NCBI GenBank assembly: GCA_019054805.1
Contig: JAHQIY010000001.1
Span: 5,408,501-5,472,500 of the forward strand
DNA: 64,000 bases
Reading direction: 5' to 3'
DNA from: Brachionus manjavacas
Taxonomy: Eukaryota > Rotifera > Eurotatoria > Ploima > Brachionidae
The notes under the pieces were generated by a model, which saw only the letters and a program-made list of their open reading frames with translations, was not told the origin of the DNA and did not search any database. Shown piece after piece: positions 22,053 through 58,500 of this stretch. How positions within the stretch are numbered: the stretch's first letter is position 1; every line of letters starts with the position of its first letter. Made by a program: the position numbers and the translations under genes.

Positions 22053-22137
22053 GTATAATAATAATAATAATAAAAAGCTACACCAGACTAACTGCGGAGC
22101 AAGGCAAAAGGTAGCCTTGCTATGGTAGCTGTCTGGT
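22053..22137 (-). repeat. (AAT)n plus AGCTAC hairpin module
   Basis: On the minus strand: CAGACAGCTACCATAGCAAG, then GCTACC, GCCTTGCTCCGCA, then GTAGCTTTTTATTATT and an (ATT)n tail. AGCTAC pairs with GTAGCT and GCAAGG with CCTTGC. A related module is at 57296-57375. It looks like the 3' end of a retroposon whose tail is the microsatellite. Confidence 0.6.
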
Positions 22138-22443
22138 TTTAACATAAATCCTTAAATTAATAAAAGGAATTAATTATTATCAGCCGATGAAGATCAGTTT
22201 AATATGGCGGCTGAAGGAAAATTACACAATAGTCGTGGGTTAATTGACGGAAAACCCATGAGAATTTCGTTCGCTTGTGGTGCAACCGTCTCGAAAATTT
22301 CAAACGAAATGATTTACAAACATGAAATGGAGACCATTCCGACGAACAAGCAAGTAAAAATTGCAGACAACTCTGTTTTAAAATTTGATAAAATTTTAAA
22401 GCGACAGAGAAGTGGACATAGAATCACATCTAGAAAGTGTTAG

Positions 22444-26751: not shown

Positions 26752-27141
26752 TTATTCGGCTTTGGAACTTGGACCTTCTTCAGCTTTCTTTGGCAATAGA
26801 ATTGATTGAATGTTTGGCAATACACCACCTTGGGCTATTGTTACACCAGACAACAACTTGTTCAATTCTTCGTCATTTCGAATGGCCAACTGCAAGTGAC
26901 GCGGTATGATTCTTGTTTTTTTGTTGTCTCTTGCAGCGTTGCCGGCTAGTTCGAGAATCTCAGCACTCAAGTATTCTAGAACAGCAGCCAAGTAGACTGG
27001 AGCACCGGCACCAACTCTCTCGGCATAATGACCTTTTCTCAACAGTCTATGAATGCGACCCACTGGAAATTGAAGACCAGCTCTCGACGACCTTGTTTTG
27101 CCTTTGGCTCTTACTTTTCCTCCTTTGCCTCGTCCTGACAT
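26752..27141 (-). CDS. H2A: Histone H2A
   Basis: 129 aa, intronless: start [20 protein letters not shown], acidic patch residues in [14 protein letters not shown], docking region [11 protein letters not shown], tail [10 protein letters not shown]. It has no SQEY end, so it is canonical H2A rather than H2A.X, and the ordinary length argues against H2A.Z or macroH2A. The encoded protein is identical to that of the H2A at 48135-48524. The stem-loop downstream marks it as replication-dependent. It packages DNA with H2B in the nucleosome. It is part of an inverted ~745-bp duplicate; the H2B that accompanies the other copy is missing here. Confidence 0.98.
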
Positions 27142-40307: not shown

Positions 40308-40470
40308 ATATTATTTATTTGTTTTCTGTACCGAGCTAAAGCTCCTTCAGAATAAGTTAAAAATAAAATAAAAAAAATATAATAAAAATAAAATTAAAGT
40401 TAATAAAATTAGATAAAAAAAAGAATCAAAATAGAGTAAATAAGCTAAAAAAATGAAAGTTGAACACATA
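40308..40470 (-). mobile_element. 5'-truncated LINE 3' end
   Basis: Only the last ~160 bases of the 40560-44990 LINE family: TTTTTTTAGCTTATTTACTC, an A/T-rich stretch, then the hairpin GAAGGAGCTTTAGCTCGGTA and an ACAAATAAATAA tail. It lies just beyond the 3' end of the larger copy, in the same orientation. Confidence 0.8.
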
Positions 40471-40790
40471 GTCCAAATTTTTGTTTAAATGTTCAAGCGT
40501 ATGTGAGATGCTCTGTCTCAACTGATAGACACCAAAAGTAATTAATTGAATATACTGGTATTTATTAATTTATTATTATTATTTTTTTATTTATTTGTTT
40601 TCTGTACCGAGCTAAAGCTCCTTCAGAATAAATAAAAAATAAAATAAAAAATAAAATTAAAATAAAATTAAAGTTAATAAAATTAGATAAAAAAAAAAGA
40701 ATCAAAATAGAGTAAATAAGCTAAAAAAAATTAAAGTTGAAAAGACATATATTGGAAAAGATTGTTTCATGTGGCACATGTTTAAATAGT

Positions 40791-43610
40791 TCAAGTTTCA
40801 GGAAAAAAAGAAGAAATAGTAAGGTAGCAATTACACAATGGAGTTGGGTATTCAATATATCTTGATTCGAAACCTTCTTTGTATTCTTTCACCAGTCTTT
40901 CAACCAATGGAATAGAATGACTCAGTCCTGTCCCAACATATTTCTCGCTCAACTCAAAAAGACGATTCGAGACTGTTAGTAATTTTAGTTTATTAAAAGC
41001 TTCATGTTGCACGATGTTGGAGGGAGTATCATATTTTAACTTAAGGATAGATCTTACTGCTGTATTCTGAATTGCTTGTAGTTTTTTGATATTATTTTCT
41101 GAAAATGAATTTAAGCAAGGAAAAGAATAGTCTAAAATCGATCCGATTAAAGATTTATTTAATTTCCTAGTGTGTTTTGATTGAGACCCCATTTTTTGTT
41201 TGACAATATCTTAATAATATTTAGCCTTTTGTTGCAGCGTTCTTTAATTTCGTCTACTAGTATATTAAAGTTTAACTTAGAATCAAATTTAATACCAAGA
41301 AACTTGATTTCTTTTTGGCTCACTATTCTGTTTCCATAGATTTTTAAGTTTAGATTATCACCCTCTTTTTTGTACCTAGAAAAGACTACTGAACACGACT
41401 TTTCAACTGATTTCTTCATTGTCGATTTAATAAGCCATTGTTCTAGTTCGCTGGTGTATTTATTAATCTTATTTTCTAGGTTCCCTTTCTTGTTATAAAT
41501 GAAGAATGTAACTAGATCATCTGCGAAAAGCAGAGAGTATTCCTTATTTTTTTTGTTTCTTTTGGGTATGTCATTAATATATATACTAAAAAAAAGAGGA
41601 CTAATTACTGAGCCTTGAGGAACACCTGCAGTTATTTGATATTCGTCGCTCAATTGGTCATTCACATTTACATTAAATGTCCTACTATCTAAAAAGGATC
41701 TAATCCAGTTAGTCAAGTAATGAGGTGGATTCATTTTAATCAATTTAAAAAGTAGACCTTCATGCCAACCAAACCCTATCAAAGGCTTTAGAAATATCAA
41801 AAAAAAAGGCCACAAACTCTTTTTTTTCTATTTAATGATTCCACAATTTTTTGAATTAAAAAGAATAGATTATCTGATGTTCGCCGGTGTTTCCTAAATC
41901 CAGATTGCTCCTGGATAATGAGTAAATTTTTTTCTAAATAATTGTATAATCTTGAAAATACTATGCGTTCCATGAGCTTTCCCAAACAACTCGTTATACT
42001 AATTGGTCTATAATTTAAAGGATCTTGTAAAGAAGAGGCTTTTTTTTGAATCATAGTAATGTTCGATGTTTTCCATGCTTTAGGGACTCTACCTTCTCGA
42101 AGAGATAAATTAAAAAGTTCTATAAGTTCTTTTAATGAATTTCTAGGTAAGTTTTTTAACATTAGTTTATGAATTTGGTCAGGTCCTGATGCCGCTTCAT
42201 TTTTCAATCTTTTTAGAGCCATAATTAATTCATTTAAGCAAATTGGATCATTAAAATTAGACTGATCATAATTTCTAAAGAATTCAGAGTTAGAATTAAG
42301 TATTTCGAAATCTTTATTACGATCTATTAAATCAGAATTAGGATTAAATATTGAAGATAGGAGTTCTCCAAAGCATTTTCCCTTTTCTTCATTAGTTTTG
42401 AATTCTTTGTCATTTAAAAACAAATTTGGGATTAAATTTGATCCTTTTTTTGATCTAAATTTATTTATTTTTTTCCAGAATGGTCTACTTGTCAGTGGGT
42501 TTTTTCCCATTTTCTCAATAAAATCAAACCAATTTTGATTCCAGAATTTTTTTAAAGAGGCCTTTAACTCAAATGTTAGTTGATTAAATTTTATCATGAG
42601 ATTTTGACAGCGAGTTTTTTGAAAGTTTCTTCTTACTTTCCTGCGTTCTTTTATCAGAATAACAATGTTCGGGGGAAGACTGGTTTTGTAGATTTTCTGC
42701 GAATGATAAGGAATGCTTTTATGTGAAGTAGAAATAATTTTTTCTTTAATTTTATCATTTAGTTGATCTATTGTGAGGGAACTTTCAGTGATATTCACTG
42801 TTTGAGAATTTAAAATCTCGCTGAATAATTGCCAGTTTGCTTTCTTATAGTCAAACTTTTTAGCTGCTGATTTATTTTCTAATTGATAGCCCATAGAAAT
42901 CGATGCTTCGATTGGGAAATGGTCACTAGTCATGTCTTGACTATTTAGGACACAAAAGTCGGTAATTTTGTCAATTAATGAAGATGAAACTAAGAAAAGA
43001 TCAAGAATTTCAAAGTAATTCCTATTAAAAATATTGAAAGTAGGACGCTTATCATTAATTACTGAGAAGTCTAACTCATTGATTATTCTTTCCAACATTA
43101 TGCCGTTTTCATTTTCCCCTACGCAGCCTATTTGCTTTGTTCTGGCGTAAAGATCACCACCTAAAATGTTGTTTCACATTTTTTATTAACAGTTTTAAAA
43201 AACTCAAAGTTCAGAAGCATAATGGGTGGATTATAAAGACTGAATATAAACAATTCATTATTCTTTCCTAAGTTCATATTTATACAAAGGAGTTCGGAAT
43301 TGAATTCCTCATAAGAGAAATCTTGTATAAATTCAATTCCTTCTTTAATTAAAATTGCTAATCCTCGTCCATACTTGTTGCGTGGTTTTGTTATGAATTG
43401 ATAATTGTGAAAATCAAGATAAATATTTGCCTCACTTAAATCTATTTTTAGTTCATTGAGCAAAACAATATCTGGACATTTTTGAGCTAAAAAATTGGCT
43501 AAGAGATGAACCCTACTAGGTAAATGAAGGCAATTCCAGTGTGTAATTACTAACCTTGTTTTATTAAGAGGTTTTGTTCTTAAAGTTGATTTATTTATCT
43601 TCTTGTTCAT
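40791..43610 (-). pseudogene. LINE ORF2: endonuclease and reverse transcriptase
   Basis: Starts MNKKINKSTLRTKPLNKTRL. APE-type endonuclease: WNCLHLPSRVHLLANFLAQK, catalytic Glu in LLNELKID, GRGLAILIKEGI, FSLYNPP, then after a frameshift near 43150 ILGGDL and SDHFPIEASI. RT: LNYRPISITSCLGKLMERIV, IQEQSGFRKHRRTSDN, DISKAFD, GVPQGSVISPLFFSIYINDI, active site LLFADDLVTFF, FLGIKFDSKLNF. C-terminal part: LDYSFPCLNSFSENNIKKLQ to PTPLCNCYLTISSFFPET. Frameshifts lie near 43150, near 41815 (T run, plus a 4-base TTGG duplication just after) and near 41180. It would make nicked, reverse-transcribed copies if intact; as is, no full protein can be made. Confidence 0.9.
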
Positions 43611-44837
43611 TTTAAATTTTCTTCAATGCTGTTTTGACTGGCAGTTTGCTGACCAATTTCTTTAGATGATTGATCTACTTGAATTGAACATTCAGTTGTT
43701 GAACTGTTTGATTCAGACTCGAAGGTACTGTCGCTTTGATTTTCTAAGACAACTAATGGTTTCTTTGATTCATTTTCGGTGAGCTATTTTTCATTTGGAT
43801 CAGATTCGGGAAATCTCTTGGTTTGATTTTTGGTTTGGAAAAAATTCTCAGTCCCATTCGGATCATTTGAGCGTACATTGACAGGTGATTGGCATAGAGG
43901 TAGAAAATCGTTTAAACGACTTACCAAAGCTTCCACTAAAACTGGAGTTTTAAGGTCTTTTAGGCTAATTTGGGATATTACGTCATTGAAATTTGTTGGC
44001 TGATATCCAGGTGTTTTTGGCATCACATTTTCATCATTATCTTTTTTGTCAGCTTCAAATAATGATTGCGTTTCTTCTTGGTCAATGTAAAGATCATTGT
44101 AGTCAATCTTTTTCCTTTCAAGCGACTTAAGCTTTTCGGCAATGGAGCATTTGTTTGTCAAATGTCCTTTCTGATGACAATTTTCGCATAGTGTTTCTTT
44201 AACAGGGCATTTAGCAATGTTGTGTCCTTCATCATCACAAAAATAGCATTTCTGCTTTTGTCCAACAATTGACACAAGACACTTTAAACCTTACATTATT
44301 GTGGGGCCTGACAAGCTTCCAATAATATTCTCAACTTCTTTTGGAAATGATATTCTCACCCTTCTGACACCATTTTTCCTCTCGGGTCTATCTATCGGGT
44401 CTATCTTTAAATTTTTTTTCGGTAATGTGTTCAATATTGAGTCCATCAATTCGAACAGCATTAAAGAAGGTTTCAAGTCTATGATTCTCGAAATCAGAGG
44501 GCAAGAAGTGAAATCGAAAAGTACAATACCTTCGGAGATCCGGGACTTTATTTGCATCTTCAAGTCTGAAAATGGTTCCATTGATATTGATGTCACGATC
44601 GAAAACTTTGGCAACATTAAAAGCAGCATTAAACTCTATTATCCAAACTTTGCTTGAAGAGAAATTGTAGATACTTGTGTTCGCATCATTTTCCATTTGG
44701 TTCAGGACGACATCAAGTGCACTAAATAAGACTTTATGGCTAATCGGTTTGTCTAACCTCTTCAAGTTTAGCTTGACCGAATTTTTAAATATCCACAGTC
44801 GGTTTTGGTTTGTTTTGTTGAGCGACATTGCCAGCAC
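43607..44837 (-). pseudogene. LINE ORF1: nucleic-acid binding, CCHC knuckles
   Basis: Starts MLAMSLNKTNQNRLWIFKNS, with FRLEDANKVPDLRRYCTFRF in an RRM-like part. Two CCHC zinc knuckles follow: CYFCDDEGHNIAKC and CENCHQKGHLTNKC (44230-44140). A low-complexity tail ends SIEENLK and TGA. Damage: a ~13-base tandem duplication near 44385-44410 (GGGTCTATCTATCGGGTCTA) shifts the frame, and in-frame stops fall at about 44291 and 43784. This is the RNP-forming partner of ORF2. TGA overlaps the ORF2 ATG as ATGA, suggesting coupled re-initiation. Confidence 0.85.
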
Positions 44838-44924
44838 ACAACTTTCAACGGTTTTAAATCACGTGATGACGCTATTAATTAAATTTTGGTTTTTCAAAAC
44901 CAAAATTCAAAAATTAATTAATTT

Positions 44925-44981
44925 AATTTGTTTGGACCAGTGATGAACGAGTTGCTTCATCACTGGTCCAAACGACAAATT
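44925..44981. repeat. Long hairpin in the LINE 5' UTR
   Basis: TTTGGACCAGTGATGAA (44931-44947) pairs perfectly with TTCATCACTGGTCCAAA (44956-44972) around CGAGTTGC. Six more pairs (AATTTG / CAAATT) follow after a 3-base bulge. A second hairpin, AATTTTGGTTTT / AAAACCAAAATT, lies at about 44882-44907. Confidence 0.9.
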
Positions 44982-45073
44982 TTCAAATTATCGAAACATT
45001 ATTGCTGATATACTTTCAAAATTTAATTCGACCATTAGCTAATTCAATTACCATTCTAATTTTTGTAATTAAT

Positions 45074-45380
45074 ATATAATAACTGTCTCTATTCTATCCT
45101 AGTATATCAATTTATCTGAAAAAAAATCACTCATCTCCTTTTCATGTCCCTTTTTGAGTAACGGCTCCGATCTGACATAGAGGCTACTGCATCAAAATGA
45201 TCATCTACTCCGCAATTATTACCCAGTCGAAACTGGTCGCCCTATTTTTATGATGAAAAAGGTTTTACCCTTCGCCCCGTATTGCAAAGATATTTTGAAG
45301 AATTTTTCATCCTCAGCGGGTTTTGAACCCTCGATCCTCTGCTTGCATGACTAACACGCAAATCATTCGGCTATACGGGC
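45074..45380 (-). mobile_element. tRNA-derived SINE with 17-bp target duplication
   Basis: Read on the minus strand it begins GCCCGTATAGCCGAATGATT (box A-like) and has a box B GGTTCAAAACC about 50 bases in (GAGGGTTCAAAACCCGC), as in tRNA genes. A ~230-base unrelated body follows and a short TTATTATAT end. TAATTTTTGTAATTAAT occurs at 45057-45073 and again at 45381-45397, immediately next to both ends: a perfect 17-base target duplication. An internal ATACGGGGC could pair with the 5' GCCCGTAT. A second copy is at 49145. The T-arm mismatch and long body argue against a real tRNA gene. Confidence 0.88.
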
Positions 45381-45439
45381 TAATTTTTGTAATTAATCTT
45401 TGTAGTGTGTTGAATTTTTCTTTATAAAAAACTTGGCAT

Positions 45440-47382: not shown

Positions 47383-47751
47383 TTATTTGGAACTGGTGTA
47401 TTTGGTTACAGCTTTAGTTCCTTCGCTAACCGCATGCTTGGCCAATTCACCTGGTAAAAGAAGACGAACTGATGTTTGAATTTCACGACTCGAGATGGTC
47501 GAACGACCATTGTGAGTCGAAAGTTTAGATGCTTCAGAAGCTATTCTTTCAAAAATGTCATTGACAAACGAATTCATTATGCTCATGGCTTTGCTTGACA
47601 CACCAGTATCCGGATGGACTTGTTTCAAAACTTTGTAAATGTACACTGAATAAGTTTCCTTTCTTTTCTTTCTTCGTTTTCCATCTCCTTTGGCTCCTTT
47701 GACTGGTTTTACGGCTTTTTTGGCTCCTTTGCTTGGCGTTTTTGGGGGCAT
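47383..47751 (-). CDS. H2B: Histone H2B
   Basis: 122 aa, intronless: basic tail [20 protein letters not shown], histone fold from [40 protein letters not shown], and the classic end [20 protein letters not shown] + KYTSSK with the ubiquitylatable Lys. A small oddity is [16 protein letters not shown] where most animals have LAxYNKRSTITSREIQ. It is divergent from the H2A at 48135, with 383 bases between the two ATGs. Stem-loop downstream. It pairs with H2A in the nucleosome. Confidence 0.97.
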
Positions 47752-48134: not shown

Positions 48135-48524
48135 ATGTCAGGACGAGGCAAAGGAGGAAAAGTAAGAGCCAAAGGCAAAACAAGGTCGTCGAGAGCTGGT
48201 CTTCAATTTCCAGTTGGTCGTATTCATAGACTGTTGAGAAAAGGTCATTATGCCGAGAGAGTTGGTGCCGGTGCTCCAGTCTACTTGGCTGCTGTTCTAG
48301 AATACTTGAGTGCTGAGATTCTCGAACTAGCCGGCAACGCTGCAAGAGACAACAAAAAAACAAGAATCATACCGCGTCACTTGCAGTTGGCCATTCGAAA
48401 TGACGAAGAATTGAACAAATTGTTGTCTGGTGTAACAATAGCCCAAGGTGGTGTATTGCCAAACATTCAATCAATTCTATTGCCAAAGAAAGCTGAAGAA
48501 GGTCCCAGTTCCAAAGCCGAATAA
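48135..48524 (+). CDS. H2A: Histone H2A
   Basis: 129 aa, the same protein as at 26752-27141, differing only by a few silent bases. It is the partner of the divergent H2B, so this is most likely the ancestral arrangement and the 26.7-kb gene the copy. Canonical, with stem-loop. No SQ motif at the C terminus. Confidence 0.98.
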
Positions 48525-49144: not shown

Positions 49145-49290
49145 GCCTGTATAGTCGAATGATTTGTGTGTTAGTCATGCAAGCAAAAAATCAAGGACTA
49201 AAAACCCGCTGAGAGTGAAAAAAATCTTCAAAATATCTCTGCAGAATAGCTATCGTCTCCCTATTATCCGCTAGGTCAGAAAAAGGACAA
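49145..49290 (+). mobile_element. tRNA-derived SINE, second copy
   Basis: Begins GCCTGTATAGTCGAATGATT and tracks the SINE at 45074-45380 through GTGTTAGTCATGCAAGCA and AAAACCCGCTGAG to CTTCAAAATATCT. After that it is rearranged or deleted, with AGGTCAGAAAAAGGACA near the end. Its box B has decayed to GGACTAAAAACC, so it is older than the 45-kb copy. Confidence 0.8.
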
Positions 49291-49543
49291 ATACATATTT
49301 AATTCAATCATGAGATAAAATGGCCATTAAAGAATACTAATGAAATAATTCTGTTTCAGTTTTATTTCATAGCTTCAAATTAAAACTTTAAAAATTAAAA
49401 ATAATGTATTTTATAAAAACTCATTTATTTGGTTTGAAATATCGAATTATTTATTAAATGCAAAAAGTTTTAAAAAAAATTTAAAAATTCCATCACAACT
49501 TGTTTTTAAATTCCATTCAAAATATTTACTTTATTCAAAATAT

Positions 49544-55500: not shown

Positions 55501-58500
55501 TAAGTAAAATGAATATGAAATGAAAAAAAAAAACTAAACAAATTCAGGAGAGAGTGGGGGCAATTTTTCTTTCAATTTCTCAGAGCAGAGCAATTTTTTT
55601 CATAAACATAAATAACTTTTTCAAAATGAATTTTGTTATAAAAAAAATTGAAGCAAAAGTTAGCATTTTTTTTTTTAATTTAAATTAGATTTTGAGCCTT
55701 TATTATTATTGAATAATAAACTATTATCATTATTGCTATTATTATTAAAATTTAGTTATTTTAGACAAAAATTTTACATATCAAATATTTATATCACCAC
55801 TTTGACAAATATCAAAAAAAAATAAATAAAAAGTTCAGTATTCAAGTTTTTTTTTATTGTAAAATTAACTTCACAAATCAATAATCGATTTTCAATTTAT
55901 TTTTAAATTTTTAAATTATCATCATATTTAACAAATTTTTACTTTTAATATTTTAAGATTTCGTTATGTTATCATTTAGGATTTTATGCAAGTTTAGATA
56001 AATTGCTCTGCTCCTGATAAAAAACTGCTCCCAACTTCACTCTTTCCTAATTCAGAAGCAATTATTTATCTATAAATTTAAATATTAATGAAAGTGAATA
56101 ATGTTAATGAATTCAATTTAAAAATTTCTTAAGGTAAGTCACATGACTTTTAATTCATAATAATTAATAATTTTTAATTCATTTATAAATAATGGTTAAA
56201 GCATGAAATTGTCTAAAACTAATTTTCCTCACTGCTAATTTTATAACATAATAGATTAAAAGAAAACCCTAACTAAAGTTAAGACTAATTTATTAAAAAG
56301 ACCCTAGCCTTCTGATTACCCCAAATACTAAACTAGAGCTTCGCTCCGAACCGAATGTATTGAATTTGATACCTAATACTCTGATTGATATTTATCAAAT
56401 GATACCTCTGATACTCGAGTATCATCATCTTCATGCAGCTAAGATCTAAGTAGTGTCAAAAACCCATGTATTTGTTTGTCTTATTCATTTAGTTGAAAAT
56501 GTAATTAGATAATAAAAAAATTTTTTTGAATAAAATTAATCGATAACTGTGAAATTAAAGTTTGTTTGAAAAAAAAAGAAATTTTGACATTCGAACCACA
56601 AATTATACTTTTTATAGTTTTAATAAAAAAATATGCAAGTCGATAATGTTGATCATTTAATACGAAATTAAACTCATCTAAATAAAAAAAAATATAATGC
56701 ACTAAGAGGCTTTCAATAACTTAAACTACTAACGGTCTCAAATCGACTTTTTAAGTTGGTTGAGAGATATGTCAGGGCAGGATTGAGTTATTCGGTTCCA
56801 TTGGTCATCAGATTGGTGGTTGAAAAAAGAAAAAGTTTTGAATCAAGATTTATCAAATATCCAACTCCATTGCGTAATTGCTACCTAACAATTTCTTTTT
56901 TTTTTCTTAACTATCAAATATTTAAACATTTCTAACCTCTAGCTATTTCAAATTATCGTTTTCAATTTTATTTTCATTACTTAACTTTATTTATACTTTT
57001 ATTCTTTTTATTTTATTTTATTAGACTTTATTTTTATTCTGAAAGAGCATTAGCTCGGTACAAATTTACAAATAAATAAATAAATAAAGTGTTTATCTAA
57101 TAAAATCACCGAATATCTAAGATTACTTGAACTTAGGACGATATATTATAAATAAACCAAGGGATGGGACATTTTTTTTTAATTCGAAGAAATTTTAAAA
57201 AATTATTTATAACAAAAATAGAAAAATAAAAATTAAAAAAAGCAACACTAAATTTTTAGATACTATATGCCTGATAACATCAAGTAAAATAATCTTAATA
57301 ATAATAATAATAATGATAATAATAAAGAGCTACAGCAAGCAAGCTTGCGGAGATAAGTGCGCATATGGTAGCTAATTACGCAAAAATTGAGAGATAAATT
57401 AAGGAACTACAATAAAACTTACACAGACGAAACTGAGGTACAAGACGAATACGAGAGATTATACAGATTAATGAGTTAAGTAGATTTAAAGTAATTCAAA
57501 AAATTTGTCATTAATAAGAAATTAATAAAAAATAAATCAAATAATGGTAAAATAATATAAAAAACTAATAAGGGATGATTAATTTCATTTATAGGTACAA
57601 TTGATTAAGAAAAAAAAAATTAAAGAGACATTATAGATATTACATAAGATTATAAAGAACATTACAGGTAAAAAAAAAGATAAATAGAAAATTAAAAAAA
57701 TTAAATTCTAATTATATAAAAGTGTATAATAATCTATCTTCTTTTTTTTTCAATCAAGTATTTTTTAACTTAAAGTTCTCTTATCTACTACATACCCGAA
57801 TGCTGTCTGAGTGACGATAAGTGCCGCAAACAAACTCTCGAATATGTCCATGCTGGTCGGATTGCTGATCACATTGAATTCATTGACCACTTGGACCAGG
57901 TTTTGTACGCGCTCAAATCGCTGCTGTTTGTCGCACGGCGCGAACCAAATTTGATAGAAAGTGTCAATTACCAGCTTTTTGATATTGTCTTCGTCGTTGA
58001 TGCGTCTTAGGATGCGCACGCATATTTCGCGTTTGTGTTCGAATCGCGGCTGATTCAGACAAATGTCTCGCAGTATCTTGATCACTCGTTTGCGCACACT
58101 CACTCCCACGTCCAGTATGCGCTCCGACAACAGCTTGTAGTAGTGGGCAGTGAGTTCAGGCATTATGGTGATGAAGCGGCCGACGAGATCGACCGAGGCC
58201 TCGCGAACACTTATGGTCTGGTGCAGAAAATTGGCCTCCACACACATGTAGACTTTGGGCTTGAGTAGGATGTGCGGATCGGCCTCGATCACCAGCGACA
58301 AACACTTGATGGCTTTGGAGCGCACTTGGGTCGGCGTCGTGCCATCACTGCCCGTCAAATTCACAATGTTCAACAGGTAGAAGTCGAAATTTTTGTCCAA
58401 ATTTTTTTTCGCCGATATGAGGTATTTGGTTAAAAAAAATGCCTCGCCAGCGTCCAAGCCGGTGTTCGACTTTTGGTTGTCGAGCAGTGAGTAGATTTTG

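Follow-up and report, generated by a model that had tools for sequence, protein, structure and literature searches.

The window, a 64,000-nucleotide stretch of Brachionus manjavacas DNA (C1:5408501-5472500; GC content, 28.7%) taken from a genome of 114 Mb in 61 contigs, contains a LINE on the minus strand at approximately positions 40580 to 44900, with endonuclease and reverse transcriptase (RT) domains in broken frames. The 3' end of this LINE is seemingly present twice in tandem (approximately 40560 to 40640 and 40310 to 40440), and pieces related to it stand inside or beside the SINE loci L004, L038, L054, and L055. Just upstream of its first open reading frame (ORF), an inverted repeat (GTTTGGACCAGTGATGAA) occupies positions 44930 to 44973. 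Its 18-nt arms are perfect and enclose a loop of 8 nt, and no second copy was seen in the window and locus sequences searched. Two histone H2A genes encoding the same protein and one adjoining H2B gene lie at 26752 to 27141 (minus), 47383 to 47751 (minus), and 48135 to 48524 (plus), and we take their proteins to be divergent for an animal.

The window also holds a SINE that is full length and lies in minus-strand orientation; its 5' end is at 45380 and its 3' end is near 45074. The original prediction had described a complete tRNA-derived SINE with a tRNA-like head, a B box, and a perfect 17-bp target duplication; each of these was found, and the strand is newly assigned here. The duplication adjoining the 3' end (45057 to 45073) and that adjoining the 5' end (45381 to 45397) are identical over 17 nt, a match that lengthens to 18 nt (45056 to 45073 and 45380 to 45397) on inclusion of the boundary C; they read ATTAATTACAAAAATTA on the minus strand. 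The tRNA-related head (family positions 1 to 73) occupies positions 45308 to 45380 and was delimited by alignment of the consensus head with a genomic tRNA-Thr(CGT). Within it, an A box, TAGCCGAATGR (family positions 8 to 18), lies at 45363 to 45373 and a B box, GGTTCAAAACC (family positions 52 to 62), lies at 45319 to 45329; both were assigned against what we take to be the consensus sequences of these boxes. Their positions and spacing are those of tRNA, which makes them a putative RNA polymerase III (pol III) promoter. The 5' terminal GCCCGTAT (45373 to 45380) and an internal ATACGGGGC (family positions 99 to 107; 45274 to 45282) form the two strands of a closing stem predicted by fold computations. 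A core 28-mer, ACCAGTTTCGACTGGGTAATAATTGCGG, lies at 45210 to 45237, and the 3' region (45076 to 45131) ends in CTAGGATAGAATAGAGACAGTTATTATAT.

This copy differs from the family in its 3' region, in which a stretch bearing eight consecutive T residues replaces the 5' half of the family tail hairpin. The 3'-most 67 nt matched only itself in a genome search because the stretch is altered in this copy. A run of eight T residues would terminate a pol III transcript, and the window copy is therefore probably not a source copy. It is 87.5% identical to the family consensus, compared with 95 to 99% for 29 other loci, which were the best matches and hence are biased toward young copies. We regard the window copy as an ordinary, older product of the proposed retrotransposition of this family.

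The SINE family across the genome

The family consensus is approximately 295 nt long. Genome-wide, the head gave 424 matches and the core gave 480 (28-mers, at most 3 mismatches), and the tail gave 571 (22-mer, at most 2 mismatches). The two strands were represented by 206 and 218, 237 and 243, and 290 and 281 matches, respectively, and reversed-pattern controls gave 0 matches for each of the three. This is a short, dispersed, multicopy repeat. An element search of the genome, in which the best 40 of 1,045 first-look candidates were scored, yielded at least 41 matches including the window copy, and in 30 tail loci picked by order of coordinate (L032 to L061), the identity of the main SINE piece to the consensus was 78 to 99%. 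Single-copy status, which had been named as an outcome that would speak against a SINE, was not observed: there are hundreds of copies, many of them full length.

The tail was examined in 65 copies. The motif GGGACA was held by 55 of these, 51 of which had 1 to 6 ATT units; the remaining four scored no ATT, in L001 since the match fell at an upstream GGGACA and in L026, L029, and L104 owing to a base change. The family therefore ends in a terminal simple repeat of variable length, (ATT)n. The tail hairpin (positions 256 to 285) is small, with a z score of −1.65 (15/200 shuffles).

A second, diverged copy sharing the head and early body had been noted at 49145. That similarity is present on the plus strand (family positions 1 to 98; 49145 to 49243; 86.9% identity to the consensus), but the description missed that consensus positions 252 to 291 follow at 49254 to 49293 (80% identity), so that the element (49145 to 49293) is an internally deleted copy; no target duplication was seen around it by eye. 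Flanking repeats of four other internally deleted copies, judged by eye and without a control, were exact over 16 nt (L032) and 15 nt (L105), matched at 12 of 13 positions (L043), or extended over 8 nt only (L098). Because deleted copies are still flanked by repeats, the loss of internal sequence probably preceded or accompanied insertion, which is what template jumping by the reverse transcriptase would produce.

A second SINE family with the same head was considered and rejected on the heads that were read. Among 53 listed exact heads on C1 to C5, 26 had no nearby listed exact core, exact tail, or element-search match, and four of these were read: L104 and L107 are full diverged SINEs, L105 is internally deleted, and L106 is a 43-nt head fragment followed by unrelated sequence. 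The rotifer spliced-leader 23-mer gave 0 hits with at most 2 mismatches allowed. A search of IMG/VR and GTDB contigs for a 24-nt stretch of the SINE core yielded no exact match, and no printed occurrence of five strings from the family was found in the literature searched; repeats of Brachionus are the subject of a paper (PMC6555955). The family is new, and its kind, the tRNA-derived SINE, is already well known.

Candidate partner LINEs

The original prediction held that the body of the SINE does not resemble the LINE tails in the window, and it proposed a comparison of the last bases with LINE 3' ends. The LINE at approximately 40580 to 44900 (minus) was rejected as a partner, as its 3' end consists of a hairpin plus AATAAATAA-type sequence and is unlike the SINE. 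A different LINE family has its own hairpin and an (ATT)n end, at 22055 to 22160 and 57296 to 57383 of the window (both minus) and at L024 (approximately 1375 to 1450), L029 (approximately 2423 to 2510), and L075 (approximately 2424 to 2506), with fragments in L018, L094, and L012. These 3' ends are recurrent and diverged, with a hairpin of the type GCTACCATAG...GTAGC. In L024, a LINE-like ORF end (LYEVVNQWNTLP...SVNQFK), presumably of a CR1/Jockey-like clade, stands just upstream of the tail.

On the basis of its terminal repeat and architecture only, this hairpin-(ATT)n LINE is the first helper candidate. It is possible, though we hold it tentatively, that it serves as the helper and that the SINE is recognized through a hairpin together with its terminal ATT units, with no shared sequence. 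The LINE ends occur twice in the window and also at several loci, one of which has an ORF end, and they repeat the same unit as the tail of the SINE. On the other side, similarity to the SINE outside (ATT)n was at chance in all five LINE tails compared (83, 224, 245, 299, and 417 of 500 shuffles were as good), and the L029 tail ends in ATAATAAT and not in ATTATT. The LINE end at 22 kb of the window stands between two plus-strand frames, which we take to be gag-like and protease-like.

Alternatively, the helper LINE may share the 3' end of the SINE, as in known pairs, and may be a low-copy element hidden among the 571 tails; we give this reading the same tentative standing. A survey cited in PMC3747384 counted 58 SINEs with a LINE-shared 3' end. 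In addition, all 30 tail loci that were read (the first exact matches, in coordinate order) had SINE sequence beside the tail, a sample in which a LINE at less than approximately 10% of tails could be missed. Four exclusion-pattern searches (0, 31, 18, and 17 places, partly overlapping) nevertheless found no LINE family with the SINE tail, although a low-copy LINE, or one whose shared stretch lies further upstream, would escape both such searches and those based on RT distance. In the set of 31 places, the 12 that were read were heterogeneous, comprising two full diverged SINEs, one truncated SINE, one internally deleted SINE, and eight tail-only inserts. None of the 12 had shared non-SINE sequence upstream, and the eight tail-only inserts had unrelated upstream sequences. 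A tail-only insert could equally represent an extreme truncation of the SINE or a truncated LINE. Clustering of these inserts at positions 269 to 270 was discarded as an artifact of the pattern used. RT distances were measured from 115 LINE-type RT places, which were chosen by length from 150 RT matches with the 35 shorter ones omitted. Among 100 listed tails, a single one had such a place nearby, at a distance of 518 nt on its upstream side, and the SINE ending in this tail is full length; a second tail stands 5.8 kb before an RT.

The tRNA-like head and its predicted fold

The consensus head (positions 1 to 73) was aligned with six tRNA sequences from this genome. The alignment with tRNA-Thr(CGT) was gap-free, with 44 of 73 positions identical (z, 7.3), as was that with tRNA-Lys(TTT) (42/73; z, 6.3). 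A tRNA-Lys variant gave 41 identities (z, 6.5), and alignments with gaps gave 44 for the tRNA at L108 (z, 6.0), 41 for that at L109 (z, 4.5), and 37 for tRNA-Gly(GCC) (z, 3.2). The head is thus tRNA derived by alignment. ARAGORN reported no tRNA in the window, and Rfam reported no family at gathering scores. An Rfam cmscan of the copy at L011 gave no tRNA match even at an E value of 5, which counts against the SINE explanation. Since neither ARAGORN nor Rfam calls a tRNA, the head is, as judged from its sequence, degenerate relative to tRNA. Absence of TTTT from the consensus was dropped as support for pol III transcription, as 948 of 2,000 shuffles likewise lacked it.

Two observations on tRNA genes elsewhere were made. 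Those on contigs C21, C45, and C55 (L062 to L066) have encoded CCA ends, and for this reason these are probably bacterial contigs within the assembly. On C11, C9, C2, C17, and other contigs (L068 to L091), 32 tRNA places have an equal score of 72.1 bits; the ones that were read share a single sequence, that of a tRNA-Lys(TTT), and several stand in opposed pairs.

An unusual closure of the head, by pairing of the 5' GCCCGTAT with the internal ATACGGGGC, had been suggested from inspection. Computation predicts this closure as the thermodynamically favored fold. In the consensus, positions 1 to 8 pair with 99 to 107 with probabilities of 0.43 to 0.99, and the probability of the ordinary acceptor pairing (1 to 7 with 66 to 72) is 0.0. 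The computed folding energy of the 107-nt head is −41.0 kcal/mol, and shuffles average −25.5 (z, −4.37); the energy of the head was matched by 0 of 200 shuffles and by 0 of 300 in a separate run; the head of the window copy itself gave a z score of −2.92 (1/200 shuffles). Because segment 74 to 107 pairs with both 1 to 8 and 39 to 55, the modeled head takes the form of a clamp that encloses two small hairpins. The whole element folds modestly (z, −2.45; 3/200 shuffles), and the part from 74 to 295 alone shows no unusual folding (z, −0.27).

The closure structure was derived from the consensus, which favors it, and the closure test was post hoc. In 31 of 2,000 shuffles, the 5' end finds an 8-nt complement interrupted by no more than one bulge, and when segment 74 to 107 alone was shuffled, the observed energy was reached in 6 of 500. 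These values leave room for a head closed as an ordinary tRNA acceptor, with the 99 to 107 pairing a chance occurrence. Six of the seven acceptor positions are pairable. Over 48 copies, acceptor cells were paired at 79.9%, or at approximately 94% once the never-paired G5-A68 is set aside, against 92.7% for closure cells, and such pair counts do not decide between the two. A comparison of 79.9% with 92.7% as evidence against the acceptor was therefore dropped, as it reflects that one position. The pair probabilities and the shuffles of the entire head argue against the ordinary acceptor, and we regard it as unlikely. The family is young, and the sole compensated pair of the closure (C4-G103 to T-A), occurring only in L014 and L028, was rejected as support; these two loci have a common flank, so that the change counts as one event, and both sites lie in CpG.

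Target duplications, mode of spread, and related systems

Target duplications in other copies, a check proposed with the original prediction, were scored against a control in which the flanks of different copies were paired, with the 95th percentile as the threshold. Identical loci were removed, and L014 and L028, which have a common 5' flank, were both kept, giving 42 full-length copies. Duplications of 8 to 18 bp exceeded the control in 25 of these (20 of 30 best-match loci and 5 of 12 other full-length copies), and the window copy scored 17 of 17. Target duplication is thus a property of the family, as in other tRNA-derived SINEs. The 17 full-length copies with no duplication above the control count against a SINE family. 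Among partial copies, 8 of 23 exceeded the control, and 5 of 23, being pieces of internally deleted copies with SINE sequence upstream, were unable to score. In 19 of the 25 passing copies, 2 to 6 extra bases separate the duplication from position 1. These bases often end in GA, and the true 5' end of the family, as read from sequence, is therefore probably (A)GAGCCCG.

A nonmobile repeat spread by duplication, as the common 5' flank of L014 and L028 and five places approximately 7.5 kb apart on C10 might suggest, is refuted for copies that pass the duplication control and is exceedingly improbable overall, given that the remaining aligned flanks of L001 to L030 are unrelated to each other and that many copies have target duplications above the control.

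The head, boxes, target duplications, and tail identify the element as a tRNA-derived SINE. We conclude, with a probability of about 0.93, that it represents a tRNA-derived SINE family of approximately 295 nt that would spread by pol III transcription and LINE-driven retrotransposition, with the window copy as one older product. The head of the family is collinear with tRNA and has A and B boxes. Its copies are dispersed over both strands and include 5'-truncated ones as well as copies with target duplications, and its tail mostly has 1 to 6 ATT units; that the searches run found no LINE family sharing the SINE tail counts against this explanation. In the proposed mechanism, RNA polymerase III would transcribe the SINE from the A and B boxes, and the head of the RNA would take an enlarged, cloverleaf-like shape held closed by pairing of positions 1 to 8 with 99 to 107. 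A LINE reverse transcriptase would recognize this RNA by its 3' hairpin and terminal (AUU)n and copy it by target-primed reverse transcription at a nicked site. Slippage could account for the variable number of ATT units, early stopping for the 5' truncation, and template jumping for those internally deleted copies in which flanking repeats are retained.

A more specific proposal joins two steps: that the tRNA head gained a complementary downstream strand (74 to 107, pairing with 1 to 8 and 39 to 55), giving a 107-nt clamped cloverleaf that replaced the acceptor stem, and that the LINE recognizes the hairpin and (AUU)n without shared sequence. We consider this combination rather doubtful. Should either the clamp or recognition by a LINE that lacks the SINE tail be borne out, this would inform the question of how SINE RNA is selected by LINE enzymes, which is usually argued from common 3' sequences. 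The compact 114-Mb genome also gains a SINE family that includes copies of recent origin and has an RNA fold that can be tested.

HaSE1 of Helicoverpa armigera, as described in PMC3272025, is alike in plan, with a tRNA-related head of approximately 74 nt, A and B boxes, and a unique body. Its head is 58% identical to a fly tRNA, compared with 44/73 to a genomic tRNA here; its tail is also a trinucleotide repeat, (TGA)n rather than (ATT)n; and its target duplications are likewise short (5 to 18 bp) (PMC3272025). The same description differs from ours in two respects: the HaSE1 3' end is common to the LINE HaRTE1, whereas no such match was found here, and its head is reported as a cloverleaf, whereas the predicted closure here uses a strand outside the tRNA part (PMC3272025). 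The stringent pairs described in PMC3747384, eel UnaL2 with its SINE and the tobacco TS SINE, likewise have a 3' hairpin and variable short terminal repeats but include a LINE partner whose 3' sequence matches; the searches run here found no such partner. The Drosophila I element, a LINE and not a SINE, is a non-LTR element that likewise ends in trinucleotide repeats, in its case TAA, by the description in PMC3747384. 

The five places on C10 (2730174 to 2760326) are SINE tails with an identical upstream 14 nt and form a tandem array of a larger unit.
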